Source: Favolaschia claudopus (taxonomy: Eukaryota; Basidiomycota; Agaricomycetes; Agaricales; Mycenaceae). From it: DNA of 64,000 nt. The notes beneath the pieces were generated by a model. The model was given only the letters and a program-made list of their open reading frames with translations. It was not told the DNA's origin and searched no databases. Positions 41,241-59,193 of the stretch are shown one piece after another; the first letter of the stretch is position 1, and every line of letters begins with the position of its first letter. Position numbers and translations under genes: made by a program. The stretch lies in assembly GCA_037176885.1 (NCBI GenBank), contig JAWWNJ010000070.1:62001-126000 (forward strand), written 5' to 3'.

Positions 41241-42605
41241 TGACAGACCTGGTATTGGGCTACGCCTGAATTTATTCATTTTAAGGCTAGTTACAACGGT
41301 ACTATTAATAAAGTACTACAATACTCAGCGAATGAGTCTCAATAAGGACTGAGGTCTGCCTGGGCGGTCAGTCAAAGGAGAATACACAGGTGGGAGCTCT
41401 GGGGTCCGTTTACGATGGCACTGCAAAGTGTCAGAGTTACAATAAGTCGGACATGAGCTTCCGCGATAGGTCTCTTACCATCCGGAATAGGATTGGGAGT
41501 TACCTGGTGCTCCAGGAACAAAGGCGTACATTGAAGGACATTCCATTTGGGACTCGTTGGAACTCGAAAGGTGTTACCAGGAGCAGGAGGCTTCCGCGGA
41601 AAGGTCTAAGACAGGACTATAACTCAGGAACGTTGGCGACCTGTAGGAAGAGAATATTCCTTATTCACGCAGTGCTACTTGGAGCAAGTAGATCATCGAT
41701 TGGATAGCAAGAGGGCTATTGATTCATGACCGGAGATATCAGTACAAACGGGGAAGATCTACGTTGGCCAAGCCAGGAGAACAATGGTATCCAAGAGGAT
41801 GCCGGAGGTAGAACAATGGTATCTAGTGGGCGCCGGAGGTAAAGGCGTAAATCCCTCACCAGTACCGGAGGAAAGCCTTTAACAAGTAAAACTGAATGAG
41901 GTCTGGACCAAGAGGGTCCGGAGTTACCAATATTATACCCATAAGATGGTTTGTTTATCGTCTCATATTTATTGCTGTGAATGTATATAAAGCACTGTAT
42001 CATGTACTGGAGCTCTAGTGGATTCCCCCCTCTCGTTGTGAGCGTCAAGCCAGTGTTGGCTTCGTGAATAACTAGACGTTGGACTTCATTCGAGATAAAC
42101 TCCAGAAGCTTATTTGTTTCTTTTGTTTGTTTTCGTTGCAATATACTGTCTGTTGGATCATATCTTGAATTATACGCGTGAACATATTATTGAGAATCAG
42201 TACCAACGCGTGGAATTATAAGAGCCTGACACGGACCTTTTGAGAGAACGGAATCAGTTCAAACATACTTTCCGCGGAAACTCATTTTGCGAACGAGCAC
42301 ACACAACTTAAACCTCTAAACCTCTACCAAAGAGTAACATCTCAATTACCTGTCTGAACGCACCTTCCTGTGTCAAGACTAGGATAGTTAGTATAAGAAC
42401 GGTCAGAACGAGCTATCGCGAAAGCCTCGAACTAGTATATTTTGAAGATAGTATTGGTTGAATTGCAACAGTCTATACTGGACTGGAACCCCGAACCTCG
42501 CACGTCGATTAGAAGTGGTTAGGATTTATATTAGGATTTTGTGTGGATTAGATTCTGCGCATTTTCTTGGTTTATTTCCACCGTAGCCCCATAGTCAGCG
42601 TTTCA
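41241..42605 (+). repeat. 5' LTR
   Basis: 1,365 bp, TGACAGACC...GCGTTTCA. It contains a TATATAAA box at 41984-41991, so U3 probably ends near 42015. Apparent open frames inside (41390-41707 plus, 41716-42141 minus) recur exactly in the 3' LTR and are not genes. Confidence 0.96.
41984..41991 (+). promoter_or_regulatory. LTR TATA box
   Basis: TATATAAAGCAC in the 5' LTR, expected to drive the genomic RNA. The same site recurs at 58020-58027 in the 3' LTR. Confidence 0.55.
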
Positions 42606-42607
42606 TC

Positions 42608-42629
42608 TGGAGCCCACCGCGAGGGGTTC
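42608..42629 (+). other. Primer binding site
   Basis: Two bases after the 5' LTR comes TGGAGCCCACCGCG, the usual TGG start of a PBS complementary to a tRNA 3' end (GGTGGGCTCCA). A U at the discriminator position is characteristic of tRNA-Cys; that assignment is an inference, because complementarity beyond about 12-14 nt does not fit a normal T-arm. Confidence 0.6.
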
Positions 42630-42801
42630 ATTCAACCAGTTACTAGTTCAAAGTAGAAAACTTCGTACTATCGTTGGAACTGCTTAGTTCTAAAACTGGT
42701 CTTTCTACACTTCCTATAACAGGATTATACCTTGGAATTACTCCAGGAAGAACGAAATTCGTTAAAACCCAAAAGCACCGTTGACTTAGTTCAACATTTC
42801 G

Positions 42802-44718
42802 GTGCAACCAGAGTCAGAAGAAATATCTGCGGACGGTGAACTTGCTTCCACTTCGTTTGAAAGACCCAGAGTGCGGAGGTCTAGTCGGTTGAAAACACCA
42901 GCTGATCTATCTCCTCTTCCTAAAAAGAAAAGGAGTAGTGCAACTGAAGCCGGCAGAGCTCAGTCCAAGGCTAGAACAAAAGCCAGGGTTACAGCATTTA
43001 AGTCGAAGCAGAAAGCTATCGCGGAAAGACAGACGGCTTCGCAAACCTTATCAGAAGAAGAAGAAGAGGATAAAACCCCTTCTCCTACTTCTCCTACCTC
43101 CTCACAAACCTTACCATCTCAACCGTCGACTAGTACGATGGCAGATCAGAACCAAAACCAAAATCAAGGACCTAAGGTCGCTAGTTTCAAAGTTCCATAT
43201 GCATGGGACTCTAACGCGCCTAAGTTCACGACTGAAGACTATGAGGATTTAAAAACCTTCATAGATCACGTAGATCAAATCCTAGAGTTGGCTGGAATAA
43301 CAGATGACCAAACGCGGAAGGTCCATCTGACAAATTATCTCAGTGCCAAGAAGAAGGAGCAATGGAGATCTCTTGCAACATACCTAGCTGGGTCATACGA
43401 TGACTTTTTGGCTGAAGTGTACAAGAGTTATCCTGAGATTAAGACGGACCGAGCAGGAACCGTTGAAAATCTTAAGAGACTCTGCAAGCGTAATAAAGGA
43501 ATTACGGTATACGAGGAAGGGAAACTCCGACGGTTCAACTTAGAGTATCTCACAGAGGTCAAAAAGTTGTATAAAGCACCGGCGTTGTTAACCAACCAAG
43601 TTGCTTGCAAGCAGTATCTTGACACCCTGGAAATTGCTTTCAAAAATATACTAGAAGTAGCAATCGCGAATTCGGTATTAATGAAAGCACAATTTCCGAA
43701 TCTGGCAAAGAAAACCGCAGCAGCAGTAGCTGGCGCGGAAGCAGCTAAGCCAGACGCAAGGAAAGAAGATCCAATAGAGTTGGAGGATCTTATCCAATTG
43801 GCGGAAACGTTGGCCGCAAGCCAACATGAAGCACCAAGTGTGACGATTGAGCAGGAAACTAGGGTTACTCCTGGGGTACATCTTGTTCCTCCTAACACCG
43901 TTGTGAAGAGCGAGCCACTGGATGAGAAATTTGAGATCATAGAAGGTGCTATAGCCCAGCTGAGGGACCAGTACTCTCTAACTCAAAAGACGTACGACGA
44001 AAGGCATAACGAGTTGCTTAAGTCGATGCAACAACTCACAAAGGATCCTCCGCCTCATTTTGGTGGAAACAGGGATTACAACCGTTCCAGTTTCGCCTAC
44101 AATTCTCAGGGCCCTAGTCAGAAGGCTGGTGGACCAGAAAGAAATGAGAGGCGGAGCTTCCGCGAAAACGACAGAGAATGTTTTTACTGCGAAGAAGCAG
44201 GGCATTACTCTCGCGAATGTCCGTATAAGGATGAACACATCCAAAAGGGACACTTAGTAGTTGAAAATGGGAAGCATAAGCTAGGAGATGGGAACTGGAT
44301 TCCTTCCGGAACCGGTAGCCAGAGAGTTCGAGTGGAGAACTACTGGAAGAATAAGTCTACTAGCCAAAACTGGAATGTAGTAGACTCCTACTATAACGGC
44401 GAAGGAGAAGGGAGTCATTATGACCCTGAGCTTCAAGCTGATGAGATAAAGACTCTGAAAGTACGGCTCAGAAGAGCTGAGCAGTATAATCAGATCCAGC
44501 AAACTCATCAGGCTAACCAAGTGGTTCAACCCACTTTTATGGCACAGATGCAACCAATCGCGGCTGCTCAACCAGCCGCTGGCCCAACCGATTTAACTAA
44601 CGCCTTACATGCGTTACTGTTAAAAGGACTGAGTGCTGTGGATGCTCAGCCACAAGAGCAGTTCGCGGTTACTAGGAATGTGTCTAGACAAGGTGGAGGT
44701 TCGCCTTCAAATTTCTAA
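42802..44718 (+). CDS. gag: Gag polyprotein with CCHC zinc knuckle
   Basis: The structural protein that packages the element RNA. The clearly gag-like part starts at the ATG 43138 (MADQNQNQNQGPK), then a helical capsid region (YEDLKTFIDHVDQILELAGI, about residues 150-300 of the full frame), and a zinc knuckle CFYCEEAGHYSREC with exact CX2CX4HX4C spacing near 44180. It ends at TAA 44716-44718. Upstream of 43138 the same frame is open for 112 codons back to about 42802 and encodes a basic, Ser-rich segment (VRRSSRLKTPADLSPLPKKK), although no ATG exists there in any frame. Either a non-AUG start or splicing from the LTR would be needed to use it. The protease frame starts 11 nt after the stop. 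Confidence 0.9.
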   Translation: MQPESEEISADGELASTSFERPRVRRSSRLKTPADLSPLPKKKRSSATEAGRAQSKARTKARVTAFKSKQKAIAERQTASQTLSEEEEEDKTPSPTSPTSSQTLPSQPSTSTMADQNQNQNQGPKVASFKVPYAWDSNAPKFTTEDYEDLKTFIDHVDQILELAGITDDQTRKVHLTNYLSAKKKEQWRSLATYLAGSYDDFLAEVYKSYPEIKTDRAGTVENLKRLCKRNKGITVYEEGKLRRFNLEYLTEVKKLYKAPALLTNQVACKQYLDTLEIAFKNILEVAIANSVLMKAQFPNLAKKTAAAVAGAEAAKPDARKEDPIELEDLIQLAETLAASQHEAPSVTIEQETRVTPGVHLVPPNTVVKSEPLDEKFEIIEGAIAQLRDQYSLTQKTYDERHNELLKSMQQLTKDPPPHFGGNRDYNRSSFAYNSQGPSQKAGGPERNERRSFRENDRECFYCEEAGHYSRECPYKDEHIQKGHLVVENGKHKLGDGNWIPSGTGSQRVRVENYWKNKSTSQNWNVVDSYYNGEGEGSHYDPELQADEIKTLKVRLRRAEQYNQIQQTHQANQVVQPTFMAQMQPIAAAQPAAGPTDLTNALHALLLKGLSAVDAQPQEQFAVTRNVSRQGGGSPSNF

Positions 44719-44729
44719 AGGGTTCAGGG

Positions 44730-45950
44730 ATGGAGGCAATCTCGCGGACCAAACAATTAGAAAAGCCTCCTGAGGACCGTACCGATAAAAGTGCCGCAGA
44801 CAATAGTAGAGATTGGAGGGCAAGAGCTGCCGACGATGTAGAAAAGTCTCAGGCCTTGGAAAAGGGAGAGCCACGGCCAAGACGAGAAATCGCGATTGGT
44901 GTTGAACTTCCATATAGACAGGTGAAGCCAGTAATAAACCGGCAGAGAGACCAAAATGTTGATGAGGTGAAAGAGAATAAAGAAGCAGACGAGAGGGCAT
45001 ACCAGCTGAAAGCTCCAGTACAGAAAGATGGACTGGGAAGAGCAATCGCGGATGCTGTTCTAAACTCGGAAGTCACTTTGGGTGTTAAGGACTTGGTTGG
45101 AGTATCCCCAGAAGTCAGAGAAACACTTAAACGTGACTTCACAAAGATAAGAAGGATAGTGAAAGCTCCAGGAGCTAAGCAGGTTATGTTCGAAGAAGAA
45201 CTAGACCTACCCTTCCCAGAAGAGGAAGAGGAAAATCTGGAGTATGACGCACTCAACTTGGATGAACTTCCAAAAATCTCCTCTGTTTACGTCAATACGA
45301 TTGAAACAGACGAATTACCGGAAGGAGCGGTGTCAATTCCGGATCCATTTGTTCAGTACTTAGAATCCCTGAGTCCTGATGAAAAACCTAAACAGGTATA
45401 TATGGATCCGAGAAATTCAACCGTGGGAAGAGACTCGGCTAATCTACGAGTACTATTTCCGTCCATAAATAAGCAAGGACGGGTAGAGTGTGTATTAGAC
45501 TCTGGCTCACAAATTGTGTCCATGTCTCTTGAGCAAGCGGTTCAGCTGAAGCTTAGCTGGGACCCTGACGTAAGAGTATGGATGCAGAGCGCCAATAGTA
45601 CAATGGAAAGAGCCGTTGGCTTGGCAAGGAACGTACCTTTCAAATTTGGGGACATAACGGTGTACCTGCAGGTCCATATTATTAAAGGACCAGCATATAA
45701 GGTGCTACTAGGTCGACCATTTGAGGTATTAACCGAATGCCAAGTCAATAACAGTCGAGACGAGACCCAAACCATCACTATCAGAGACCCTAACACAGGC
45801 AAGCGTTGCACCCTGACAACTATCCAAAGAGGAAAAGAGACAGAGCAATCGCGGAAGCCCACTGTAACGGTTGAAGAGGAAGATGAGCGTCCAGAAAAGA
45901 CTGCTGACCCAGAATCAAAGCAGGGTTTTCGTCAAACTTCGAGGACTTAA
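44730..45950 (+). CDS. Retropepsin (aspartic protease) frame
   Basis: 406 codons from ATG 44730, in a different frame from gag. The N-terminal 230 residues are charged and of unknown role. The C-terminal part carries the retropepsin core: VECVLDSGSQIVSM with the catalytic DSG at about residue 257, then the second strand LQVHIIKGPAYKVLLGRPFE, matching the LLG motif after the flap. It should cleave Gag and Pol. It ends at TAA 45948-45950, whose last A is the first base of the pol ATG (TAATG). A separate protease frame placed between short intercistronic signals is unlike the usual gag-pro-pol fusion. Confidence 0.85.
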   Translation: MEAISRTKQLEKPPEDRTDKSAADNSRDWRARAADDVEKSQALEKGEPRPRREIAIGVELPYRQVKPVINRQRDQNVDEVKENKEADERAYQLKAPVQKDGLGRAIADAVLNSEVTLGVKDLVGVSPEVRETLKRDFTKIRRIVKAPGAKQVMFEEELDLPFPEEEEENLEYDALNLDELPKISSVYVNTIETDELPEGAVSIPDPFVQYLESLSPDEKPKQVYMDPRNSTVGRDSANLRVLFPSINKQGRVECVLDSGSQIVSMSLEQAVQLKLSWDPDVRVWMQSANSTMERAVGLARNVPFKFGDITVYLQVHIIKGPAYKVLLGRPFEVLTECQVNNSRDETQTITIRDPNTGKRCTLTTIQRGKETEQSRKPTVTVEEEDERPEKTADPESKQGFRQTSRT

Positions 45951-48900
45951 TGCAATTGCATGAACGAGGAGAGTTGGCGTTGAAATTTGGCTTTAATGAA
46001 GATAAAGAGTTAGAGATTGAAGGATATTACAAGCCAAAAGGAGTGGCGTTCACGGAGACAGAAGTTCTTGAGGCCTATGTTAGTGCCTCCACGGGAACAA
46101 GGAATATGAGAAAAGACAAGAAAGCTAGAGTCTTGTTCAACGAATTCCGCGAAAAGTCTAAGAAGACAACTGGGAAACGTAAGCCGTATGGTGTCTTCAC
46201 TTGGAGCATGAGTGAGGGACCAGTGGAGGCAGGAAAAGGGAAGAATAAACCTGGGGAATTTATCCCTCCCGCACCTCGATATACTCGGAATGAAGTCAGA
46301 ACTATGCATGTCCTAAATCAAGGAGTTCATTGCCCTTGTTGCGACTCAGCGGAGTTCATTCATCCGACTCTTTCTCAAGAGATATCGGAAGAACCACCTT
46401 CCGCGGAAGATCAGGAGGATCAAGATGATCCTGTTTCGGTGTTCGCTGGCAAAAAGTACAAGCCAGTAGGGTTGAAGATTCGTCCTGTATATACTGAACT
46501 ACCTGAAAAGTTCAGAATAAAACGAGAAATTACGGGCGATCCTTTAGCGGAAATGCCTGAACTAAACCCTGTACCAGGGGAGTTCAAACCCACAGGACGT
46601 TACACCGAGGAGAGAAAAGCTATCATCGATGGACTGCATGATGGAGACTTCTTATGGCCGGAAGAAAGGAAATTGATGCATGAATTCATGATGAGGCAAG
46701 AACAAGCCTTTGCTTGGGATGATTCAGAGAGGGGCAGCTTCAGGCATGATTTCTTTCCTCCAGTCGAATTCCCTGTTGTGGAACATGAGACGTGGGTAGA
46801 AAGGAGTATTCCAATTCCAAGGGGACAGTTGGAAGAATTCTGCAAAGTAATTAAGAAGAAAATAGACGCTGGAGTCTATGAGCCATCGAATGCTTCTTAT
46901 AGAAGCAAGTTCTTTGGAGTTGTAAAGAAAGATGGAAAAAGTATTCGGCTGGTGCATGCACTAGAACCTTTGAATGCAGTTACTATCGCTCATTCTGGGG
47001 TTCCACCAGCTACGGATGAGTTGGCCAACCATTTCGCGGGAAGAGCCTGCGGTGCCAGTTTGGATCTCTACTCAGGTTATGATCACAGGGATATCGCGGA
47101 AGGTTCAAGGGACTATACGACGTTCCAGACACCTTATGGGGCACTACGCTTAGTAAAGCTACCCCAAGGTTGGACAAATTCGGTTCCCATCTTTCACGAT
47201 GATGTGACTTTCATCTTAAGAGACGAAATTCCACATGTAACTATACCCTATATTGATGATGTACCTATAAGGGGACCTGGTACGAGGTATCAGAATAAAC
47301 ATGGCACGTATGAGACCATCCGCGAAAACTCCGGAATAAGGAGATTTGTCTGGGAGCACTTCCAGAATTTGAACAGAGTAGTTCAGAGAATCAAATATTG
47401 TGGGGGAACCTTTTCTGGAGCTAAATCAGTACTGTGCTGGGATGTATTCCCAGTAGTAGGACATATTTGCTCTTATGAAGGTCGCCGTCCTAGTACGGAT
47501 AGAGTTGGTGTTATCATCCGCTGGGGACCCCTCAAAGATGTTTCTGGAGTCAGACAATTCCTTGGAGTAGTTGGAGTCTTGCGGATGTTTATAAAAGGAT
47601 TTGGGGATATGAGTAGGCCTATTGCGAAGTTAACTCGAAACGATGAAGAATTCGTTTGGGGGCCTGAACAAGAGGCAGCCATGGAGGTAATAAAGCATGC
47701 GGTGCGGACCTGTCCAGCCCTACGGCCGTTAAATTACGACTGGGATACGGACATAGTTCTCGCGGTTGATACTTCTTGGATGGCCGTTGGGATTCAAATA
47801 TATCAGATAGATATAATTGATAAGTTGAAAAGGCATTACGCAAAGTTTGCTTCAATCACACTCAACAGGCGAGAATCCAGATTTTCACAACCCAAGAGGG
47901 AGTTGTACGGGCTAAAGAGGGCCTTGGAAGCAATGCAGTACTGGCTGCTGGGGTGTAGAAGGCTAGTTGTGGAAACTGATGCGCTGTATATCAAAGGAAT
48001 GTTGAACAATCCCGGTATGGGCCCGAATGCCACAATCAACCGTTGGATTGAACAAATCCTGATGTTCCATTTCAAGTTGAAACACGTAAAAGGAGCCACT
48101 TTTCCTCCTGATGGTCTCTCGAGACGGGAATATCAGCCAGGGGATGAAGAATTCCCAAACAATGAAGAGGGTTTGGATGAGAACCCTATTCCGGGGAACC
48201 ATGAAGATTGGGACTATGACTGTGAGCAGCCTTTGGATTTCGACGAATTCAAGGACGAAATAGACGAAAGGGGTGGATACCTGCAGTCTATGGCTGGCAC
48301 AGCAAGCAGTATTGATGAATTCGCGGAGGAACTACTTTCCGCGGAAGCTCAGGAAAAAGTGATTTCTGACCGGGTGAAAGAGGTATACGTTGGAGAAGGA
48401 CTAGTAGTGCCTCAATACATTAATGTGAACGTTGCGGAGCCTACAGAACCCCTGCTACCAAGCAGAGAATTCAGAGATAGTCCAGATAAACGGGAACCTT
48501 ACCCGGAGGAGCATCGTACAGGTGCGGGGATAGCACAGGACGAGCGGATTGAATTAGTGAAGATATGGCTCAAGAATCCCATGGTTAGGCCAGAAGGGAT
48601 GATGGTCAATAAGGACTTCAAGAGATTCATGAAGTTCGCAAGATATTTCTTCTTGAGTAAAGAAGGAAAGTTATACCGTAGAGGGGAAGGTTCTATGCAT
48701 AAGCTAGTAATCGCGAAAGAGCATAGAATGTACATGATGAGGGCGGCACATAATTCCTTGGGTCATAAGGGCATATTTGCAACCAAGTCTCTATTAGAAC
48801 TGCGTTTCTGGTGGCCAGAAATGGAAAGAGACGTTAAATGGTTCATAGACACTTGCAAGATATGCCAACATCGACAAAAGACCTTGCTCAGAATCCCACC

Positions 48901-50095
48901 AAGACCTACGCATACTCCAAGCTTGTTCCAAAAAGTACATGCAGACGCTATGGTCATGGGGGTGATATCCAACGGGTACAGGAATGTCGTCGCAGCGAGA
49001 GATTCGCTTTCGCGGTATGTCGAAGGGAGACCTTTGCGGTCGGAGAACGCGGAATCCATTGGGAAATTCCTATTGGAGGAAGTGATTTGTAGATGGGGGT
49101 GTCCAGAGACAATAGTCACTGACAATGGACCAGCATTTGTGGCTGCTCTAAAATGGCTAGCGTCTAAATATGGGATTAGAGGAATAAAGATATCTCCTTA
49201 TAATTCCCAGGCGAATGGTCCTGTAGAGAGGGGACACTGGGATTTGAGACAGTCGTTATACAAAGCAACGGGAGGTGATACTAAGAAATGGTACTGGTTT
49301 TTCCACCAAGTATTATGGGCAGATAGAATAACTATAAGGAAAGGGATGGGTTGTTCCCCTTTCTTTGCGGTCTCAGGAGCCCATCCTATTCTACCTCTTG
49401 ATGTGGAAGAAGCGACTTGGCTTGTCGAATACCCTGGTGAACCTATTACCACTGCCGAACTCATTGGCCTAAGGGCAAAGGCCCTTGCAAAACACTCTCA
49501 ACACGTAGAAGAAATGAGGATTCGTGTTAGTGAGGAAAAGAGGAAGTTAGTGCGACGGTACATTGATATCCATAAGAACACCATAAAGGATTTCAATTTC
49601 AAACCAGGGGCACTCGTTCTAGTAAGGAACACAGAGACGGAGAAGTCTTTGAATAGCAAAATGGATCCTAGATATTTAGGGCCGTACATTGTGGTGCGCC
49701 GTACAAAGGGAGGAGCGTATCTGCTCTGCGAGCTAGATGGTTCTATGTTACAAGGGAGAATTGCTCAGTTCAGAGTAATACCTTTTGAACAAAGACAAGC
49801 AATACAACTCCCAGAAAATATACTAGATCTCATCGACTTGTCGCAGGAAACACTCGATGAGATGGCTGAGGACGATGCTGAGGAAGATCCATTCCTGGGG
49901 AAGGACTTACAATTCCATAAAATTCGTCTTAATGATCAACTGGAACCTTCCGCGGAAACCAATGATGGCTCCGAGGAATCAGAGTCGGACGGTTATGAAA
50001 GTGATGAAGTTCCTGATTTGGACTTAGACGAGATAAGGAAGGAGACTTCCTATAAAGAGGAACCCAGGCGGTCAAAGAGGAATAAAGCCACATAA
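45950..50095 (+). CDS. pol: Pol: reverse transcriptase, RNase H, integrase
   Basis: 1,381 aa. RT: LVHALEPLNAVTI, LDLYSGYDHRDIAEG, LPQGWTNSV and the active site YIDDVPI (about residues 300-440). RNase H: LAVDTSWMAVG, KRELYGLKRALEAM, VETDALYIKGML. Integrase: zinc domain HNSLGH and CKIC (H-x4-H, C-x2-C), catalytic core VHADAMVMG, VTDNGPAF and GPVERGHWDLRQ (D, D, E; I count 34 residues between the last two), then a GPY/F-type domain (PRYLGPYIVVRR). No chromodomain follows; the tail is acidic and then basic (EEPRRSKRNKAT). The order RT-RH-IN makes it Ty3/gypsy-type. The frame is uninterrupted. Confidence 0.97.
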   Translation: MQLHERGELALKFGFNEDKELEIEGYYKPKGVAFTETEVLEAYVSASTGTRNMRKDKKARVLFNEFREKSKKTTGKRKPYGVFTWSMSEGPVEAGKGKNKPGEFIPPAPRYTRNEVRTMHVLNQGVHCPCCDSAEFIHPTLSQEISEEPPSAEDQEDQDDPVSVFAGKKYKPVGLKIRPVYTELPEKFRIKREITGDPLAEMPELNPVPGEFKPTGRYTEERKAIIDGLHDGDFLWPEERKLMHEFMMRQEQAFAWDDSERGSFRHDFFPPVEFPVVEHETWVERSIPIPRGQLEEFCKVIKKKIDAGVYEPSNASYRSKFFGVVKKDGKSIRLVHALEPLNAVTIAHSGVPPATDELANHFAGRACGASLDLYSGYDHRDIAEGSRDYTTFQTPYGALRLVKLPQGWTNSVPIFHDDVTFILRDEIPHVTIPYIDDVPIRGPGTRYQNKHGTYETIRENSGIRRFVWEHFQNLNRVVQRIKYCGGTFSGAKSVLCWDVFPVVGHICSYEGRRPSTDRVGVIIRWGPLKDVSGVRQFLGVVGVLRMFIKGFGDMSRPIAKLTRNDEEFVWGPEQEAAMEVIKHAVRTCPALRPLNYDWDTDIVLAVDTSWMAVGIQIYQIDIIDKLKRHYAKFASITLNRRESRFSQPKRELYGLKRALEAMQYWLLGCRRLVVETDALYIKGMLNNPGMGPNATINRWIEQILMFHFKLKHVKGATFPPDGLSRREYQPGDEEFPNNEEGLDENPIPGNHEDWDYDCEQPLDFDEFKDEIDERGGYLQSMAGTASSIDEFAEELLSAEAQEKVISDRVKEVYVGEGLVVPQYINVNVAEPTEPLLPSREFRDSPDKREPYPEEHRTGAGIAQDERIELVKIWLKNPMVRPEGMMVNKDFKRFMKFARYFFLSKEGKLYRRGEGSMHKLVIAKEHRMYMMRAAHNSLGHKGIFATKSLLELRFWWPEMERDVKWFIDTCKICQHRQKTLLRIPPRPTHTPSLFQKVHADAMVMGVISNGYRNVVAARDSLSRYVEGRPLRSENAESIGKFLLEEVICRWGCPETIVTDNGPAFVAALKWLASKYGIRGIKISPYNSQANGPVERGHWDLRQSLYKATGGDTKKWYWFFHQVLWADRITIRKGMGCSPFFAVSGAHPILPLDVEEATWLVEYPGEPITTAELIGLRAKALAKHSQHVEEMRIRVSEEKRKLVRRYIDIHKNTIKDFNFKPGALVLVRNTETEKSLNSKMDPRYLGPYIVVRRTKGGAYLLCELDGSMLQGRIAQFRVIPFEQRQAIQLPENILDLIDLSQETLDEMAEDDAEEDPFLGKDLQFHKIRLNDQLEPSAETNDGSEESESDGYESDEVPDLDLDEIRKETSYKEEPRRSKRNKAT

Positions 50096-50332
50096 AGTTG
50101 ATTAAAAGGAACGTGGAATAGCATTTACAGAATAGTAACGCTAAGTTGGAGGAGAGTAAAGACAGGCGATGAGTTGGACTAAAAGAACGGGGTATATGCT
50201 AAGAAAGGGACATAACCCTAAAAGCAAGAAGTAGAAGGATGGGTATGGCTAGCGCAATGGGGACATTCTGCAGTGGGGCGTTGGATTCCAAAGAAGGCAT
50301 CCAGATCGCGCTCGGCGAGTTCGGCTAGAGAA
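50096..50332. other. Spacer between pol and antisense gene C
   Basis: 3' ends of pol (plus) and gene C (minus) converge here. No motif besides a TGGGGACA similar to those before the PPT-like sites. Confidence 0.4.
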
Positions 50333-51852
50333 TCACTGAAAAATTAGGTCAGGGGTTTTCCGCGGAAGCTAAAATCTGGCTTACCTGCGACGATGGCTGG
50401 GCACTTGCTGCTGCGGGGGGTTGTTCGCGCGTGTGTTGAAGGTCGAGAACCCGCCGAAGGTCGGTGAGGAGGTACTCGCGATGCTCGAGGTGGTATCGAA
50501 GTTGGGCATTCTCGAACCCGACGCGGGACCGGAGGTCCGCCTCTTGGAGACGAAGGGAACCGATCGAATCGGCCGGGGCGCCTTTGACGGCATGGCGCGC
50601 TTCGGTAACAGTTTGGCGGATTGCTTCATTGTTAACCGATAAGTCTGTGGCTGTACGATTGTTAATTAAGATAAGATTAGCAATCGCGGAAGCTAACTCA
50701 CCTGCGTATTGATCTGCAGAGTCTTCGTGGGCGAAGTTTTGCGATGGCCGAGCCCGTTTTCTGGGAGGTGGGACTGGGAAGTCCTCAACGACGGGTCCTG
50801 ACGCTGATTTAGGGTCAGTACGAGCGAGAATTGCCATAGCCTTAAGATATTGGGGCGCTCTTCGGTCAAGGCCTTTTATGCGAAGGAAGGAAAGGCGTAC
50901 CGAGGAAGGACGCGTACTGCCGGGTTGGGATTGACTCTAAAAGGAAGAAGTCAACAATGATAACAACCATGGATAGTATCCGCGGAAGGTCAAAGTTGGA
51001 CTCACCGCACTGTTACGGTCGTCGAGAGATTGAGTCGACCGATGGCCTGAAGGACCTGCGTCATTCTATAAGTCCCAATTAGAGAAAAGGAAAAAAGCGA
51101 GTTGCAAAACTCACTGAGTCGTCGACGACCATAGCATCGTCTTGCTCAGCGGGCAACTCGGAATCATCGAAAGGAGATTCATCTCCGTCCTCAATAATGG
51201 CCTTGGACTTCTTGGCCTTGGGTTCCTTCTAAAAATAGGCATAGTCAGGCGAGAGATAAGCAAAAAGAGGCGATAACGTACGCGGGGTTTAGGAGTGGCC
51301 TTGGCCTTGCGAGATGAGCGAGACTCCTGGTCCTCCGCCTGCGCACGAGCATCTTCCAGCTCCGTACGATGCGCCTGCTGACCAGCAACGACGTTAGCAC
51401 GAAGGAGTTCGCGCTCGCTCCTGATCTTGGCACAAAGATCAAGGATAACGGGATAGCGCCCGCCAATTACACCATTTGCGCCGACAGCGCTTTGGTGGTA
51501 GCTGTTCTTGACGCTGTAGAAAGCATCATAGAGAGCTTTGTCCTTGGCAATTTCGCCGATAAGTGGCGCAAACGCTTCCTAAAGTCCGGTTCAGAGCATC
51601 AGCGGAAAGTCCAAATACGGAATTTACCAAGGACACAGCCTGTTGATCAAGGAAAGCGCGCTGCTTGTTGCGATCGGGGTATTTGGTGGCCGAAACGATG
51701 TCGGCGACGCCCAATATAGCATCATGCTGGGCTTTTGTAAGAGAAGCGCGAGGAGCCATGTTAAGGAGTGTGGGGTATTCAGCGAATGTACTGGTAAAAG
51801 GCGTATAATACAGGAAGGTTTTATACGTCGGTACTGTAGCAGCGGGCGCCAT
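50333..51852 (-). CDS. Antisense cargo gene C, basic nuclear-type protein
   Basis: Unknown family. Start at ATG 51852 or, better, 51759 (MAPRASLTKAQHDAILGVAD). Eight exons splice in one frame by GT..AG introns of about 50-70 nt: FLDQQAVSL joins EAFAPLIGEIAKDKALYDAF, then ILDLCAKIRSERELLRANVV, a basic stretch (RKAKATPKPR, KEPKAKKSKA), an acidic one, then AMAILARTDPKSASGPV, PPPRKRARPSQN (bipartite NLS-like) and a helical end (GFENAQLRYHLEHREYLLTD). It stops at TGA 50333-50335 directly after the last intron. About 345 aa. The consistent splicing over seven introns makes chance very unlikely. The basic tracts suggest a nuclear, nucleic-acid-associated role (inference). Confidence 0.68.
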
Positions 51853-52353
51853 ATTGAAGTACGACTCTCGTTCAAAGAAATTAACTGGGGACAGTTAAAA
51901 TCTATGAAAAGGGGAGGAATATAGTACAGAGGCCCTGACACAACAAATTACCAAGACATTCCGGAGATACGAAAGGAGAAGAGAACAATGGGAGAATTGA
52001 AGGCAGCAAAAATAGCGCAACAAGAATCCATTGTTCTCGGATTTAACTCCGAAAGATGTGGATGAAGTCGTGATAGATCGTCCGGGCTTCAGTCTAAAAG
52101 GGGAAATTTCCATGAGGACCGCACCAGCCGTCGGGATTATGACTTAACGACAGAAACACGAGCGCGGGAATAGGGATAAAAGGAGTAATTGGCCATAGGC
52201 CAAGAACGGGCATGAATAGAAAGCGAAAGAGAGCTTTCGCGATTGCTCACTTAATCGATAGATTATGGGTCTTAAAGGAGTAATTGATTCCACAAGGACA
52301 AAAGTGTCTAAGGAACGTTACTAAGTAAACTAAGCCTAAGACCATAAGCTAAT
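51853..52353. other. Spacer 5' of antisense gene C
   Basis: Contains the PPT-like ATGAAAAGGGGA at 51904-51915. Otherwise nothing recognised; presumably the promoter of gene C. Confidence 0.4.
51904..51915 (+). other. Internal PPT-like sequence 1
   Basis: ATGAAAAGGGGA, identical to the 12 nt overlapping the true PPT at 57263-57274. The similarity extends upstream (TGGGGACA about 18 nt before) and one G downstream. Confidence 0.6.
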
Positions 52354-53110
52354 TCAAGCTAAGGAGAGCTTGTGAAACTCGTCAATCGCTAGTTCAGTTC
52401 TGAGGAAGGCATTAACAGCGGAGAAAGCGTTAAGTCTAGTATGAACGACAGTCTGAACTTCGACTGGGAAGTGGTAGAAGGGGAAAAGACCAGCAAGGTA
52501 GCTAAGGCGATCTTCGTCAAAGATAGCTTCGACCTGGCTAAGAAGGGAGATGCGAGGGTTCCTCCAAGGAGATACTCGCGAGTCAAACTTGCGAAAGGCC
52601 GCTTGGCAGCTAGCAAAGAACGTGGCCTCTTGCCTAGCATAGGTCAGGACTGCAAAAGGACGAAAATGAGCTTCCGCGGATGCTAAGAAATAAGCAAAAC
52701 GCACCTGGATCAATGGGGTCTTGCAAGGCGAGACGTTCCATTTGAAGCCTATCGCTTTCCAAAAGCTCGACGAAGGCCAAGCGACTGCAGAAGGAGCAAG
52801 CAGTGCTGGTACCAGAGGCGACACAAGTCAAGCAAGGAATCCCCCATTGAACGAAGCTGTTGGAACGACGACAGTTGTCTTTGATAACAACGTCGAGTGG
52901 TCGTTGAACAGGGTTCTGAATAACAGGATGAGAAATACGAAGTAGACAGAGAGAAAGGGGACTTACCAATGAGAGAAGTCTTTCTCGACCAGCAAGGCTG
53001 GGAAAAACCCGATAGGAATAAGGCGATAGGATAGGAAAGTCGTCATCCGTCGCAGTTCCAAGAAGGAGAGGAAGAGCAGGAGCTACGTCCGACATAGTGG
53101 TGGAAGACAA
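52354..53110 (-). CDS. Antisense cargo gene B, Cys-cluster protein
   Basis: Unknown family. ATG at 53110 or 53095 (MSDVAPALPLLLGTATDDDF). Two introns (about 52954-52905, and 52708-52654 ending TTTTGCAG) give about 216 aa. The middle carries spaced cysteines: NCRRSNSFVQWGIPCLTC and VASGTSTACSFCSRL, that is C-x12-C-x2-C-x8-C-x2-C, a possible zinc-binding site. The C-terminal 90 residues are helical (LSQVEAIFDEDRLSYLAGLF, NAFLRTELAIDEFHKLSLA). It stops at 52354. A TATTTAAG box lies about 30 bp upstream on the minus strand (53136-53144), so the gene probably has its own promoter. The second intron contains a copy of the CGCGGA motif. Confidence 0.68.
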
Positions 53111-53479
53111 GCTGGAAATCCAAGTATTCGCGGAAGCCTCTTAAATAGAGTTTCTGTGGGAAAATTCCCGATATAGAAGCTCGGTGCGAAAGAGCCGGTC
53201 TATATCGATAACTCTGGACGATGGCTTATCAGACGGAGATAAACCAGCCACGAGGGAGAGACGGTAGTCTGTTGCTTGAATTACTCAGGTCACACGAGGT
53301 AGGAGCAGGATAGCGTGATCACATTGCGACTATTCGAAGTACAAAAGTAATAAGAGAAATTGAAAGAAAATCAGATACGAGTGGTATCTAAGAAGAGTCA
53401 TTGCAAGTATTCGCGACGTTTACTGAAATTATCTAAGTAAAACGGGTCAGCGAGTAAATAGCAATGAAAAGGGGACTAA
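53111..53479. other. Spacer 5' of antisense gene B
   Basis: Holds the TATTTAAG box of gene B, one CGCGGAAGC motif (53128) and the PPT-like ATGAAAAGGGGA at 53464-53475. Confidence 0.45.
53464..53475 (+). other. Internal PPT-like sequence 2
   Basis: ATGAAAAGGGGA, identical to copies at 51904 and 57263. It lies just past the stop of gene A and 5' of gene B. Confidence 0.55.
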
Positions 53480-56400
53480 TTACGGGTCACCACGAGGCTT
53501 GGATGGACCAGCCACGGGAGCAGATGGAACAGGAGGAAGAAGAGAACCTTCCGCGGAAGCGTCAGTTTCCTGAAAATCAAGGAAAGGAAAGAGCTTACCT
53601 GGGGGAGCGGTATCTAAAGACTCAAGAATGGTCTGCTGAGTGTCGACATCCATGTCAGGATGAGCATCAACGACCATATCAGGATGAGCCTCGCGGAACC
53701 GGGCGAAAGCTTCATCCTCCGAGTCCTCGGAATCCACCAAGTCGTAATACTCGTCGGCGCGGTGCCCGTCCTCCATCCAGAAGTTCTTCCGCAGCCCCTC
53801 ACGCCAGTGCTGATAGACCACCTCGAACGACTGTCGGTCGCCCTCCTCGAGGTCTTCCACGCCAGCAATACCAGGGACAGCTTCAGGACCCATGGCAGAG
53901 GCATAGCCGGTCATAAGCGACAAGAGTTCGTCGCGAGCACGAAAGAGGCGGCGGTTGGCAATGGCATACTGAGCATGGCTCACGATTTGAGCCTGGCGGG
54001 CCTCCACCAACTCGGTGAACACACGATTCCAGCCTAAAGAGAGGTTTGAACATAAGAGATGCTCAAGTAGAAAATTGGTTACACATACCAGCATTGGAGA
54101 AAGCAGTGATTGGGGCAAACCCCTCAATCATTCGTATAACGTCCATTTGAGTGAACTTATGCGAGCAATGGGAGAGTTTCCCTCGTTTGCAAGCACGACA
54201 GTCCTTGTTGAACTTTGAACGGTGGCACTTGCGATTGCGAAGAATGCAATTCCCGCATCCCGCCAATTGCTAGGAAAAGAGATAAGGGACACGGGATGCG
54301 GAGGAAAAACAAGAAAAGGGGACGTACCAAGACATTGTTCCCATCTTTGAACAATGTGCGGAAGTCAGTCTCTAGTTTGGACAAAGCAACCGCGGCGAAT
54401 TCTTGATCAAAGATGACGGGGTCGAAGTTGGGGACGTAAGGGGCTTCCTTGTTCTTCTGGGACACCCCACGAGTCTTCTTGACGAGTTTGGGGACTTGGG
54501 AAACGTACCCGTCGTCCGACTCTTCAGATTTCGCTCTTCCTTTACCTTTCGCGGAAGCCTTTTCGGAGACCTTGCGACGTTTAGGTGGCGGGGAAACCTC
54601 AGGTTCACCCTCCTCGTCAGAGCTGGACTCCTCGTCATCGGCTTCCTCGAGTTCCGCGCGACGGCGCTTCGAGAGACGAGCGGGCTTGGTTTCCGCGGAA
54701 GACTCGTCTGGGTCGAGACCAGTCGCAACGGCCTCGAGAGTGTTGTCAGGCTAATTAAAGATGGATAAGGAAATCTTCCAAAGAAGGAAGGTAATAATAA
54801 CGTACTTTGATCTTGGTACGGGTGCTCCGACGGGTAGCGATGGAAGTACCTCGGCTACCGCGACCACGTGAGCGAGATGACGAACGGCCTCTGGACTATA
54901 AAAAAGTCTAAGTCAGTAACTAGCAAAAATAAGGAAGAGAGAACGCTTACAGACGAAGCTGTTGGGGCAGCGGGAGGTTCATCAACGTAAGAATCAGCGC
55001 CGCCTCCTCCACCTCCTCCTCCGCCAGAAAGCGACTCGTGAGCAGCTAGCTCAGGAACGCTCGACTCAGGCTCGGGTTGGGGAGGGTCGACCTGAATGGG
55101 CGATGCAGGCCCTGGAGAACTCGCGCTAGGCGCCGTTTGAGTTGATAAAGTGAGCGCGGCCATGACTAGCGCCGCGGTAGCAGAAGAAGCGGGCGTAGGA
55201 TCCACAAAGGGATCTTCCGCGGAAGCGTTCCCTTCGCCCGATGGACCAGATTCCGCGTTCCCAGTGGATGGAATAACGGTCTTCCCTGGAGAAATAATAA
55301 GCGGAGGTCCATCGGAACGATACCAGTTCGGAACTGGAGAGAAACGACTTATACCTTCTAAAATAGATGCCGCTGAAGCATCTGCGGGGTGAGAAACGGA
55401 TGGTGTGGATACCGCTGGCTTCGGAGGAGAGAGTGCGGGGCCAGGCGTGCCAAAAGAAAGTCCGCTAGCAGGTATCCCTGGGCCAGATAAAGCACTGGGA
55501 CCAGCGCGGGGAGTTTCCGCGATTGCTGGCGTAGACGGCGCAACTCGAGGAGTTTGGAGACCAGAACCAATGGGGCTAGCAGGCGAATCAGGAGGGTTGT
55601 GGTGACGCCACGCGTCTACCACAGGGTCCTCCTGGCCGACTTGAGTCCAAGGAAGAAACTGGCCTTGAGGAATAAACTCGGCGTCTGGATACGAAAAGAA
55701 GACAGGGATCAACAGATGTTGACGTTCAGGAATGGGAAGAACGCGGTCCCAAGCCTTGGGACGCTCATCCTCAGGAATCCGCGATGCCAACAGGACAACG
55801 GAAGTGAGGATGGCATCCGCGAAAGGTCGGTCCTGGACGTCGCCAACTGCTTCGTGGAATTCGTTCTGCGAAACGAATAAGTTGAAGTTGGAGAACGAGT
55901 ATTTGGAGAAAGAACACTTACCAGGGTCATGGCGGAGCGGCTAATTAGCTGACGAATATCCGAACGACGAGAAACGTCGAGCGGCGTTCTCACATCCGCT
56001 CCAGCCGCTGAGCTAGCGTTCTCGACACATGCCTCGAGGAGAGCGGGAAAGTTGGGGTCGTCACGAAGGTCGTAGAGAGCCTTGTGTTCTGTGGCGTTAG
56101 GCTTTAACACCTCGCGAGGAAAATCTGAGTAGAATTCCAACGAGTCCGGAATCGTGAAACTCTGATCCATGATGGAGAGCTGGAAAGGATGAGTCCTGAA
56201 AAGTCTAGACGAGTAAAAAGACGACGTACGGAAGCAACCTTGTTCAAGTCAAAACCTTGGGGGAGGACTTCGTACGGTTCAGCCCAGACGTCGGGGAAGT
56301 TGGTTTGAAGCCAGAGAGCAATTGAGCTCACACCGACCAAGACACGGTCGAAGGCGGGCGTAATCTCCATGTGGTGATAGAAACGTTTGATGAGTTGCTA

Positions 56401-56812
56401 AAGAAAACATCAGGACTTCAGAAATGGAGGACTGGTACCTTCCGCGGTAGCTTACCGAGACGGGTTTGAACTGCTCAAGGAGATAAACGATGTAGGTGGG
56501 GTTGGAGTTCGATAGACGCGATGGAATGCGTATGAACTGCATTAGGCGCACAGTTGAGATGTGCTGAAGGAGGATTAAACACTCCAAATCAGCGCGGGAG
56601 AACGTCGGCCTGTCCATCAGCTCGGTGCGAGCCAACGGGATGAAAGGGCGCGACATATGGTTAACGACGTGGGCATCGTTAACCTTGTAAGGGATGACAC
56701 GAATGCCAGCCTTACGAGCCTGGGTATACTCGTCGACGGAGAGGTCCTCCATGACAAGCGTGCCCGTCATCATCTTGAGGAAACTGAAGTACTGGGAAAT
56801 TGGAGACGACAT
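53480..56812 (-). CDS. Antisense cargo gene A, large Zn2Cys6-like protein
   Basis: Unknown family, about 980 aa in eight exons, all joins in frame. The ATG at 56812 reads MSSPISQYFSFLKMMTGTLV. The N-terminal 350 residues are globular (IRVIPYKVNDAHVVNHMSRP, FYHHMEITPAFDRVLVGVSS, RPFADAILTSVVLLASRIP). A 250-residue Pro/Ser/Ala-rich linker follows, then a poly-Gly run, an SR/RG stretch (SRGRSSSRSRGRGSRG), an acidic and basic region with an NLS (PPPKRRKVSEK), and at about residues 740-775 a Cys cluster CGNCILRNRKC, HRSKFNKDCRAC, KRGKLSHC. Its spacing, C-x2-C-x6-C-x8-C-x2-C-x7-C, matches the Gal4-type Zn2Cys6 consensus. The C-terminal part is helical and acidic, with TAA at 53480-53482. It has its own TATA box and a spliced leader. 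A DNA-binding nuclear role is inferred. Confidence 0.74.
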
Positions 56813-56817
56813 CTTGT

Positions 56818-57018
56818 CTGTGAAACAGTCAAGATGGTCGAATCGTGAGCCCAGGAGCACCCGTATAGCTCCTACACGCACCTAGGGTGTTAGTTGAAGG
56901 AGTTTGAGTAATCGCGGTAGCTGGTTGTTGTGGGAGGAAGCAAGAGAAAAGTGGGCGGAAAGCGCTGCAAAACCAACATAAATCACGTGTCCCGCAGTCT
57001 AACGCACGGACCACTTAC
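56818..57018 (-). other. Spliced 5' leader of antisense gene A
   Basis: Two introns are inferred in the leader: 57018-56965 (GTAAGTG...TTTGCAG) and 56881-56818 (GTGCGTG...TTCACAG). After splicing, the first ATG is at 56812. The exon between them is open in frame but has no ATG. Confidence 0.5.
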
Positions 57019-57077
57019 AAATTCTCGAGCAAACAAAGGCGCAGAGTTGCGCTGGGATAAGGGCAATAGCGGAAACG

Positions 57078-57084
57078 TTTTATA
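57078..57084 (-). promoter_or_regulatory. TATA box of antisense gene A
   Basis: TATAAAA on the minus strand inside the element, about 190 bp before the 3' LTR and about 60 bp upstream of the first leader donor. It shows that the antisense gene does not depend on LTR transcription. Confidence 0.6.
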
Positions 57085-57262
57085 GGGGATCTCTCGTCAT
57101 TTAGCGAAGATCCCGCTGTCCATCAACGGAACCAAATTTCCAGGTGGCGGACGCCCAATCGGGAATGATATCCGAGATAGCCGAATGATTGTGGGAAGCA
57201 CCACGAATAAAGAGATAAAATGAGTCCTGATAAAGACATGGTTGAGTGGGGACACTCAATTT

Positions 57263-57276
57263 ATGAAAAGGGGAGA
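57263..57276 (+). other. Polypurine tract (PPT)
   Basis: GAAAAGGGGAGA directly abuts the 3' LTR at 57277; the usual plus-strand primer position. Confidence 0.85.
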
Positions 57277-58641
57277 TGACAGACCTGGTATTGGGCTACG
57301 CCTGAATTTATTCATTTTAAGGCTAGTTACAACGGTACTATTAATAAAGTACTACAATACTCAGCGAATGAGTCTCAATAAGGACTGAGGTCTGCCTGGG
57401 CGGTCAGTCAAAGGAGAATACACAGGTGGGAGCTCTGGGGTCCGTTTACGATGGCACTGCAAAGTGTCAGAGTTACAATAAGTCGGACATGAGCTTCCGC
57501 GATAGGTCTCTTACCATCCGGAATAGGATTGGGAGTTACCTGGTGCTCCAGGAACAAAGGCGTACATTGAAGGACATTCCATTTGGGACTCGTTGGAACT
57601 CGAAAGGTGTTACCAGGAGCAGGAGGCTTCCGCGGAAAGGTCTAAGACAGGACTATAACTCAGGAACGTTGGCGACCTGTAGGAAGAGAATATTCCTTAT
57701 TCACGCAGTGCTACTTGGAGCAAGTAGATCATCGATTGGATAGCAAGAGGGCTATTGATTCATGACCGGAGATATCAGTACAAACGGGGAAGATCTACGT
57801 TGGCCAAGCCAGGAGAACAATGGTATCCAAGAGGATGCCGGAGGTAGAACAATGGTATCTAGTGGGCGCCGGAGGTAAAGGCGTAAATCCCTCACCAGTA
57901 CCGGAGGAAAGCCTTTAACAAGTAAAACTGAATGAGGTCTGGACCAAGAGGGTCCGGAGTTACCAATATTATACCCATAAGATGGTTTGTTTATCGTCTC
58001 ATATTTATTGCTGTGAATGTATATAAAGCACTGTATCATGTACTGGAGCTCTAGTGGATTCCCCCCTCTCGTTGTGAGCGTCAAGCCAGTGTTGGCTTCG
58101 TGAATAACTAGACGTTGGACTTCATTCGAGATAAACTCCAGAAGCTTATTTGTTTCTTTTGTTTGTTTTCGTTGCAATATACTGTCTGTTGGATCATATC
58201 TTGAATTATACGCGTGAACATATTATTGAGAATCAGTACCAACGCGTGGAATTATAAGAGCCTGACACGGACCTTTTGAGAGAACGGAATCAGTTCAAAC
58301 ATACTTTCCGCGGAAACTCATTTTGCGAACGAGCACACACAACTTAAACCTCTAAACCTCTACCAAAGAGTAACATCTCAATTACCTGTCTGAACGCACC
58401 TTCCTGTGTCAAGACTAGGATAGTTAGTATAAGAACGGTCAGAACGAGCTATCGCGAAAGCCTCGAACTAGTATATTTTGAAGATAGTATTGGTTGAATT
58501 GCAACAGTCTATACTGGACTGGAACCCCGAACCTCGCACGTCGATTAGAAGTGGTTAGGATTTATATTAGGATTTTGTGTGGATTAGATTCTGCGCATTT
58601 TCTTGGTTTATTTCCACCGTAGCCCCATAGTCAGCGTTTCA
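57277..58641 (+). repeat. 3' LTR
   Basis: 1,365 bp, same sequence as 41241-42605 wherever compared. Confidence 0.96.
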
Positions 58642-59193
58642 GCGGTGAAAAGCACTACTCGCGGTCCCACGAGTAGATGGATGTACGAGAAAATTACGGA
58701 GGATGATCTGCATGATAGAGCTCGTACATTTGAGAGAAGCGTGCCGGATGGGAGCGAGATAATGGCTTCCATGGCGGAGCTGTCGAGAGCGATAGAAGTA
58801 TCATGTGCGCGAAAAATTTTGATCCGCCTCGAGTAAGCCAAAGGCCGTTCCCAGTCATGGAGATTCAAAGCAGAGACAATCCTCTACAAAAACAGGTTGC
58901 CATTAGTCCAAGCTTGCGGTTTGACAGCTAGTACTGATACTCACAAAGTGTCCATCGGCAGATGTCCAGCTACTGGAAGGTAAACATTTGAGAAGGGTAA
59001 CAAGCCCATGGCTTGACTGCCACAGTAAATCCAGCGCTGGGTCGCTGAACTGGCGGCATGTCGTTGCCAGCGCATAGAGAGCTGCAACATTTCCGCGAGC
59101 TACACTCGGAACGGTGTAGGATTCTTCGGCACATGGGTCCAGCTCGGCGAAAATCGCTCGAGTCAATTCTACGATCTTCCAGCACCGGTGCAT
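58642..59193 (-). pseudogene. 5' part of the F-box gene split by the retrotransposon
   Basis: The ATG at 59193 reads MHRCWKIVELTRAIFAELDP, an F-box, then AALYALATTCRQFSDPALDL. An intron with donor GTGAGT at about 58946 leads to IVSALNLHDWERPLAYSRRI and SSVIFSYIHLLVGPRVVLFT, where the retroelement begins after the GC of an Ala codon. The other half is at 40366-41240. The exact in-frame match shows that the gene was intact at insertion. Confidence 0.85.

Follow-up and report, generated by a model that had tools for sequence, protein, structure and literature searches.

Three antisense, intron-bearing genes and a scattered CGCG motif in a Ty3/gypsy retrotransposon of Favolaschia claudopus

The DNA analysed here (the window, 64 kb in length) comes from the mushroom Favolaschia claudopus (Mycenaceae) and contains a Ty3/gypsy long terminal repeat (LTR) retrotransposon of 17,401 bp at positions 41241-58641. 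On its minus strand, between pol and the 3' LTR, lies a cassette of three genes, which we call A, B and C. Judged by its sequence, the element is an autonomous member of an old Mycenaceae gypsy lineage with three antisense, intron-bearing accessory genes. Its features are as follows.

41237-41240 and 58642-58645, flanks of the element: target duplication GCGG, 4 bp
41241-42605, plus strand: 5' LTR, 1365 bp, TGACAG..GTTTCA, the 4-bp duplication GCGG outside it
42606-42635, plus strand: presumed primer-binding site region, TCTGGAGCCCACCGCGAGG, the letters directly after the LTR
42790-44718, plus strand: gag, a 642-amino-acid frame with a CCHC zinc knuckle (PF00098, E 1.4e-4)
44688-45950, plus strand: aspartic protease frame (PF13975, E 3.6e-7)
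45908-50095, plus strand: pol, with reverse transcriptase, RNase H and integrase (PF17921, E 4.9e-17; PF17919, PF17917, PF00665)
50333-51852, minus strand: gene C, 397 amino acids (366 from the second ATG at 51759), seven exons (51852-51628, 51578-51282, 51228-51115, 51065-51006, 50936-50702, 50644-50385, 50335-50333)
52354-53095, minus strand: gene B, 211 amino acids, cysteine-rich, three exons (53095-52967, 52915-52705, 52649-52354)
53480-56812, minus strand: gene A, 964 amino acids, nine exons (56812-56456, 56397-56230, 56179-55922, 55865-54951, 54895-54806, 54750-54328, 54269-54089, 54033-53599, 53547-53480), with a Zn2Cys6-like cluster at about residues 742-772
57079-57084, minus strand: TATAAA, 272 nt upstream of the A start
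57265-57276, plus strand: polypurine tract, directly before the 3' LTR
57277-58641, plus strand: 3' LTR, 1365 bp, TG..CA
41459-58315, no strand assigned: CGCGGAA/TTCCGCG at 31 scattered sites, of which 11 hold the full palindrome TTCCGCGGAA; the sites fall in the LTRs, in gag and pol, and in the exons and introns of the antisense genes

The TG..CA LTRs, primer site, polypurine tract, target duplication and gag-protease-reverse transcriptase-RNase H-integrase order are those of a Ty3/gypsy element. The gag, protease and pol frames are all open. The PF00078 match in pol falls under the Pfam cut-off. The two LTRs are 100% identical over 1365 bp, and the insertion is therefore young.

A first-pass annotation of the window had described three antisense exon chains of about 980, 216 and 345 amino acids, joined by about 16 GT..AG introns. 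With exon boundaries read by eye and later by protein-guided spliced alignment, the chains become proteins of 964, 211 and 397 or 366 amino acids with 16 introns (eight in A, two in B, six in C) of 49-69 nt, all of them GT..AG in the window. Automatic exon chaining with gag-pol codon usage was also tried, and its splice choices were discarded in favour of these boundaries. A public prediction, P0003 (964 amino acids, eight member sequences), aligned with our 981-amino-acid draft of A at 97%, along the full length of the draft, and, used as the guide in spliced alignment, gave eight introns in A, including the last, of 51 nt. The TATA-like boxes claimed for A and B were located at -272 and -52, and another lies at -66 relative to the second ATG of C. 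Where C starts, at 51852 or at 51759, is uncertain. The stretch before the second ATG (51760-51852) encodes a peptide, YK..YTP..S.F..YP.L, that is conserved in some Mycena and Favolaschia proteins and whose YK codons are TATAAA in the window; it could be an N-terminus or a promoter.

None of the three proteins matched a Pfam family at E≤1, and the same search gave no match to the TRP28 domain of the Retand lineage. The predicted structure of C (mean predicted local distance difference test score, pLDDT, 63) has a confident helical N-terminal bundle and a long C-terminal helix, and a PDB fold search with this model returned no match at E≤0.001. PDB sequence matches, at best E 0.64 for C and 0.069 for A (an antibody fragment), were judged to be chance.

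We measured selection on a single pair of copies, the window element and C143, a copy 89% identical to it, using the whole-element alignment. The first-pass annotation had listed neutral evolution among the joint grounds for dismissing the genes, and the ratio of nonsynonymous to synonymous substitution rates (dN/dS) proved to be far below 1: 0.124 for A, 0.078 for B and 0.121 for C, with 0.084 for gag, 0.049 for protease and 0.029 for pol. Substitutions at codon positions 1/2/3 numbered 90/63/318 in A, 10/4/55 in B and 13/3/42 in C. Read column by column, A, B and C of C143 contain zero stops; the same exons of the window read in the sense direction contain 6-47 stops. In a separate alignment, used to re-read the copies described below, A of C143 breaks around exon 3 and intron 3, where it is locally different, but protein-guided splicing reads it with zero stops. 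Between the two copies the introns are 8-39% different; their gap totals range from 0 to 19 nt, and in 11 of the 16 the total is not divisible by 3. By these comparisons the antisense genes are under purifying selection, somewhat less constrained than pol. Along the element the synonymous rate (dS) between the two copies is uneven, fourfold higher in A (0.65) than in C (0.16), and their LTRs differ by less than 5%, which suggests recombination between lineages and perhaps a mosaic history.

The cassette is present in C143 and in seven further copies of the window's own family (C97, C92, C8, C57, C107, C108, C12); a ninth place, C8:958325, holds just 1.7 kb of the A region. Because 86.8% of BUSCO genes are duplicated in the 265-Mb assembly of this wood-inhabiting fungus (figures from excerpts of PMC10905254), part of the copies may be alleles of one another, a case in point being C97 and C92 with their common 3' flank. 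A, B and C run without a stop or net frame change in six copies (C97, C8, C57, C107, C108, C12). The introns were present in all eight other copies re-read from alignments, although the GT..AG rule, which held for 16 of 16 introns in the window, does not extend throughout the family: one B intron departs from it in seven of the eight, with a GC donor in the three whose letters were read (C8, C107 and C12). That antisense introns are retained in every re-read copy is what would be expected if the genomic RNA is sense, which is the reasoning of the first-pass annotation. Its further statement, that an antisense position is the sole arrangement in which introns can travel in a retroelement, was too strong: packaging of unspliced RNA would let sense introns persist as well.

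Chance exon chaining by a gene finder could in principle produce such models, and some copies are damaged (stops in the C of C363, frameshifts in A and B of C92, one stop each in A and B of C11), as would be the case if the antisense genes were functionless remnants or prediction artefacts. We regard this as very improbable: dN/dS is about 0.1 in the pair compared, substitutions are biased by codon position, a public model has the same structure, and, as described below, intron positions are shared at 34-75% identity and A, B and C are retained in elements that have lost pol.

Searching the F. claudopus assembly with one exon of C gave 84 matches, or 77 loci once seven secondary rows of already counted places were removed: 11 at ≥95% identity, 26 at 76-78% and 40 at 55-63%. 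At 58 of the 77, A exon 1 lies on the same strand 4.8-5.4 kb upstream (9, 23 and 26 loci in the three groups); four of the 19 unlinked loci were read (C127, a truncated copy on C164, C46 and C363). Our account of the diverged families rests on C163, C66, C164, C11 and, in part, C127 for the 76-78% group, and on C47 alone for the group at about 60%. A exon 1 itself gave 95 matches, of which 18, at 34-37%, have no C-exon match nearby (C98:133084, C66:631933, C170:328243 and 15 others) and are perhaps another cassette family or A-only elements.

The elements at C163, C66, C164 and C11 are 10.7-10.8 kb long with LTRs 98-100% identical. All that is left of gag-pol in them is the first 64 to 110 amino acids of gag and a stretch of 70-100 residues from near the pol end, and C, B and A follow this remnant in antisense, between the LTRs; to judge by these features the elements are non-autonomous and recently mobile. 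The A frame is free of stops in C163 and C66, and can be read in C127 only with doubtful introns. The check proposed in the first-pass annotation, whether relatives of the cassette lie antisense beside a related pol, comes out positive at C47, where gag, protease and pol accompany antisense A, B and C in a second autonomous family. C47 is identical to the window element at 57.5% in gag, 57.2% in protease, 75.8% in pol, 27.8% in A, 32.2% in B and 62.7% in C, and the pol-less group at 34.1% in A (C163), 39.7% in B (C127) and 75-76% in C. In comparisons between families, identity is lower for A (25-34%) and B (26-40%) than for pol (76%) or C. Intron positions are shared even so, at 34% identity in A and 75% in C: the window, C163, C66, C127 and C11 have C introns at 75, 174, 212, 232 and 310/311 in equal phases (C47 has them at 75, 176, 212, 230 and 311), and A introns at 119, 172/175, 261, 596, 737 and 798 are common to the window, C163 and C66.

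Both LTRs surround the cassette in the window, C143, C163, C66, C164 and C11; a 3' LTR stands beside it in the seven further copies of the window's family; C47 and C127 have one LTR-like end; and C46 and C363 have just a 191-bp LTR-like piece in the opposite orientation. After the LTR-like end of C143, C163, C66, C164, C11, C47 and C127 come the letters of TCTGGAGCCCACCGCGAGG as well. At C164:46000-86000 a pol-less cassette element, complete in itself, lies inside a different, distantly related gypsy whose 884-bp LTRs are 100% identical, and a second, truncated cassette copy adjoins it. In a sample of 13 outer 3' LTR ends from 12 distinct places (L014-L018, L020, L021, window, C143, C163, C66, C164, C11), all were followed by xCGx (GCGG, CCGT, GCGC, GCGT, TCGT, TCGC, CCGC), and integration seems to prefer NCGN. 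The 4-bp target duplications match on both sides in five of the six elements with both flanks, the exception being C11. No tRNA was found in the 64-kb window and no Rfam family in the element.

Outside F. claudopus, a profile of C built from four proteins found at least 30 proteins among the best 7995 candidates scored, seven of them F. claudopus proteins and the other 23 belonging to eight Mycena species (albidolilacea, filopes, epipterygia, leptocephala, olivaceomarginata, latifolia, rosella and vulgaris) at 36-56% identity. The homologs in other genomes that the first-pass annotation had proposed to look for thus exist for C. Protein searches with B gave two matches, both from F. claudopus, and with A at least four, all from F. 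claudopus among the matches listed; this fits the faster change of A and B and a word-based search. A Mycena latifolia protein, P0023, is no more than suggestive as a fused B+C prediction: it scored 38 against one B (that of the window; shuffle maximum 24) and 22 against another (maximum 30). None of 47 pattern matches in IMG/VR was confirmed as a relative.

These distributions bear on whether A, B and C are a host gene cluster captured long ago and carried as cargo, with the motif described below serving a host protein, an RNA or integration. Intron-rich genes without a known protein family match do look host-like, and the insertion sites are CG-centred. Against this, the C loci whose surroundings were read lie in elements, with LTRs or LTR-like ends, A and B are far more diverged than pol, and the enriched word differs by family. 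We therefore consider an ancient capture improbable, and the one-off capture raised in the first-pass annotation is contradicted: on the sequence comparisons, the cassette is an old and integral part of a gypsy lineage.

A role as nuclear factors had been proposed for the cassette proteins from their composition. A Zn2Cys6-like cluster, basic and acidic stretches and a scattered motif lend this support, the function itself being inferred. In the A proteins of the window and of C163 the cluster is C-x2-C-x6-C-x8-C-x2-C-x7-C, and B of C47 has one of its own, C2C6C8C2C6C. All three satisfy the PF00172 spacing, CX2CX6CX5-12CX2CX6-8C; the Pfam Zn_clus scores (18.3 bits for C163 A, 16.7 bits for C47 B) do not reach the curated cut-off of 21, and we therefore call the cluster Zn2Cys6-like and not a member of PF00172. 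Dimeric binding to half-sites of the CGG type is common among Zn2Cys6 proteins. CCGCGG is a back-to-back CGG pair, which would make A, or A with B, a natural reader of the CGCG motif.

The window has 11 copies of TTCCGCGGAA against 0.07 expected, and every one of them lies within the element. CGCGGAA, counted on both strands, occurs 42 times in the element (shuffle mean 1.9) and 45 times in C143 (2.0), versus 10 times in the rest of the window (8.9 expected). The other elements have few copies (C163 0, C66 2, C11 1, C127 1, C47 2) and words of their own: CGCGAT[AT]G is found 16 times in C163, 12 in C66 and 16 in C11 (0.6-0.7 expected) and four times in C127, the pol-less elements also favour CG[CT]GATAG, and AGTCGCG is found 16 times in C47 (2.0 expected) and 0-3 times elsewhere. 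Among palindromic 8-mers, TCCGCGGA leads the window element (13 versus 0.23, corrected p 1.8e-16) and C143, and TTCGCGAA leads C163 (p 1e-4), C127 (p 3e-3) and C66. A distantly related gypsy at C164 (pol 28-35%) had no CGCG word.

The 31 unique sites are spread at gaps of 36-1692 bp (median 424). Each LTR has three; the introns, with six of the 31 in 870 bp (p 0.004), are the densest part of the element. Of the 42 motif occurrences, 40 are conserved in C143, where 21.9 were expected from CpG-bearing words within 300 bp and none of 2000 simulations reached as high, although the 42 are not independent, since a palindrome contributes each of its half-words and the two LTRs both enter the count. 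All 11 palindromes are conserved (5.0 expected). In A, third codon positions inside motifs were the same in 22 cases and changed in none, versus 624 and 318 outside (p 2.7e-4); in pol the counts were 19/1 and 1065/287.

Several observations weigh against a family-specific motif read by A. The words were taken from enrichment lists of the same sequences, which makes self-enrichment partly a matter of choice; this applies less to the conservation test, to the difference from one family to another and to the p values corrected over 256 palindromes. The window family, too, has an excess of CGCGAT[AT]G (13 versus 0.8), so that not every word is family-specific. The leading palindrome of C66 is borderline (p 0.07), C11 is led instead by AATATATT, and C47 has no enriched palindromic 8-mer. 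Between C163 and C66 the conservation of CGCGAT[AT]G was not significant (10 of 16 versus 7.9 expected, P 0.19). CCGCGG words are raised in flanks as well, CCGCGGAC in the C66 5' and C11 3' flanks and CCGCGGAA in the C66 3' flank (4 versus 0.18), and genome-wide GCTTCCGCGGAAG has 60 matches versus 18 for a reversed control, many outside known copies. As to the protein, A of the window has no Pfam match, its relatives lie under the Zn_clus cut-off, the C47 A cluster deviates (C2C7C7C2C7C, seven residues in the first loop and not six), and A, as opposed to a host factor, is a putative binder.

One of the three flanking stretches with raised CCGCGG is itself a gypsy (pol 69% identical over 281 residues). 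Of nine control stretches for the palindrome test, six had no enrichment; the others were the C11 3' flank (TCCGCGGA, 3, corrected p 6e-3), the C66 5' flank (TATATATA, 3, p 5e-4) and the C11 5' flank (GCTCGAGC, 7, p 2e-8), the last a local cluster with seven of eight matches inside 220 bp. These seven palindromes lie at L036:1244-1461. On balance the motif appears family-specific and spread along the element in the window's family, and more weakly so in the others.

The best explanation as a whole, to which we give slightly less than an even chance, is that the cassette encodes a DNA-binding regulator that recognises its own family and acts against silencing, as VANC does for VANDAL transposons. 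A, B and C would be expressed from their own promoters as spliced mRNAs, and A, possibly with B, would enter the nucleus and bind as a dimer to the CGCG-centred motif scattered in copies of its family. This self-recognition would control the chromatin or transcription of the element, most likely by shielding it from silencing. As the packaged RNA is sense, the antisense introns would be retained and could themselves hold binding sites. A and B would evolve fast together with the motif, C being conserved as a shared partner, and elements without gag-pol would keep A, B and C because regulation acts per family and Gag-Pol can be borrowed. The fullest form of the proposal is a spliced, antisense, multi-gene self-recognition system in which a fast-changing zinc-cluster protein recognises a family palindrome distributed over coding, non-coding and intron DNA and so keeps its copies unsilenced; the introns, safe from loss by virtue of the sense packaged RNA, would also serve as docking sites, and relatives without pol would survive on this system alone. 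In this form the proposal is doubtful.

The same DNA-binding system could also have an ordinary activator or a copy-number repressor as its product, like retroviral HBZ or Tax, with no part in anti-silencing. The three unique sites in each LTR would suit such a product, and plant antisense open reading frames have been proposed as such regulators (in the portions of PMC7264820 and PMC11963269 available to us). Sites through gag, pol, antisense exons and introns, densest in the introns, are more than a promoter needs, and we think this reading unlikely. From family to family the enriched word, A and B vary, and C and pol vary less; for this reason, and for the likeness to VANC, we favour, with modest confidence, a part in anti-silencing or in chromatin over one at the promoter alone.

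Antisense genes in gypsy elements are not in themselves a new idea. A 2011 report by Zhao reportedly concerns, to go by its title, Boty-like elements and their antisense gene brtn. An excerpt of PMC8365987 also places brtn in the Boty-like elements of Botrytis, which resemble ours as fungal LTR elements with an additional antisense gene; that likeness is one of description, and there is one gene there and three here. Extra antisense open reading frames between pol and the 3' LTR, suspected of encoding nuclear regulators, are known from maize Grande (gene 23), rice RIRE2 and Silene Retand (PMC7264820 and PMC11963269, in part). These share with our element the long region before the 3' LTR, the antisense gene or genes, the nuclear or possibly DNA-binding product and the existence of some non-autonomous members; Grande is described there as having its own antisense promoter, where we have TATA-like boxes alone. 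In contrast to them, the present cassette has three genes, 16 introns, no TRP28 and a scattered motif, and belongs to a fungus. The word "intron" is absent from the main text of both papers. In the open-access (PMC) literature searched we found no LTR element reported to have an antisense cassette with several introns, which is no proof of absence. As far as that literature goes, what is new is the cassette of three genes and 16 introns, its persistence in elements without pol, the selection measured on it and the DNA word.

HBZ has a spliced form and is of the leucine-zipper type; it differs from the cassette in being one gene, with an antisense promoter in the 3' LTR. VANDALs are DNA transposons of the MULE type, whereas the element here has reverse transcriptase and LTRs. 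What HBZ of HTLV-1 shares with the cassette is an antisense regulatory gene in an LTR retroelement (PMC11963269 and PMC7264820, in part). VANDAL/VANC, an anti-silencing system of Arabidopsis (excerpts of PMC5735166 and PMC10398659), shares an element-encoded, fast-evolving factor and a short motif that differs between related families and occurs in introns and other non-coding parts (PMC5735166). In those excerpts the VANC motifs are tandem repeats in non-coding parts and binding is demonstrated; here the motif is scattered, also in coding sequence, and is known from sequence alone.

It is not settled, for plants or for fungi, why large gypsy elements retain antisense genes. In this lineage selection on three such genes can be measured, the genes outlive gag-pol and a candidate DNA target is available, so that their function is directly testable. 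If the proposed explanation is true, retrotransposons and fungi would join the known cases of VANC-like, sequence-specific self-recognition, and there would be an example of how genes rich in introns can travel on an element that is reverse-transcribed. It may also have a bearing on genome expansion in the Mycenaceae.

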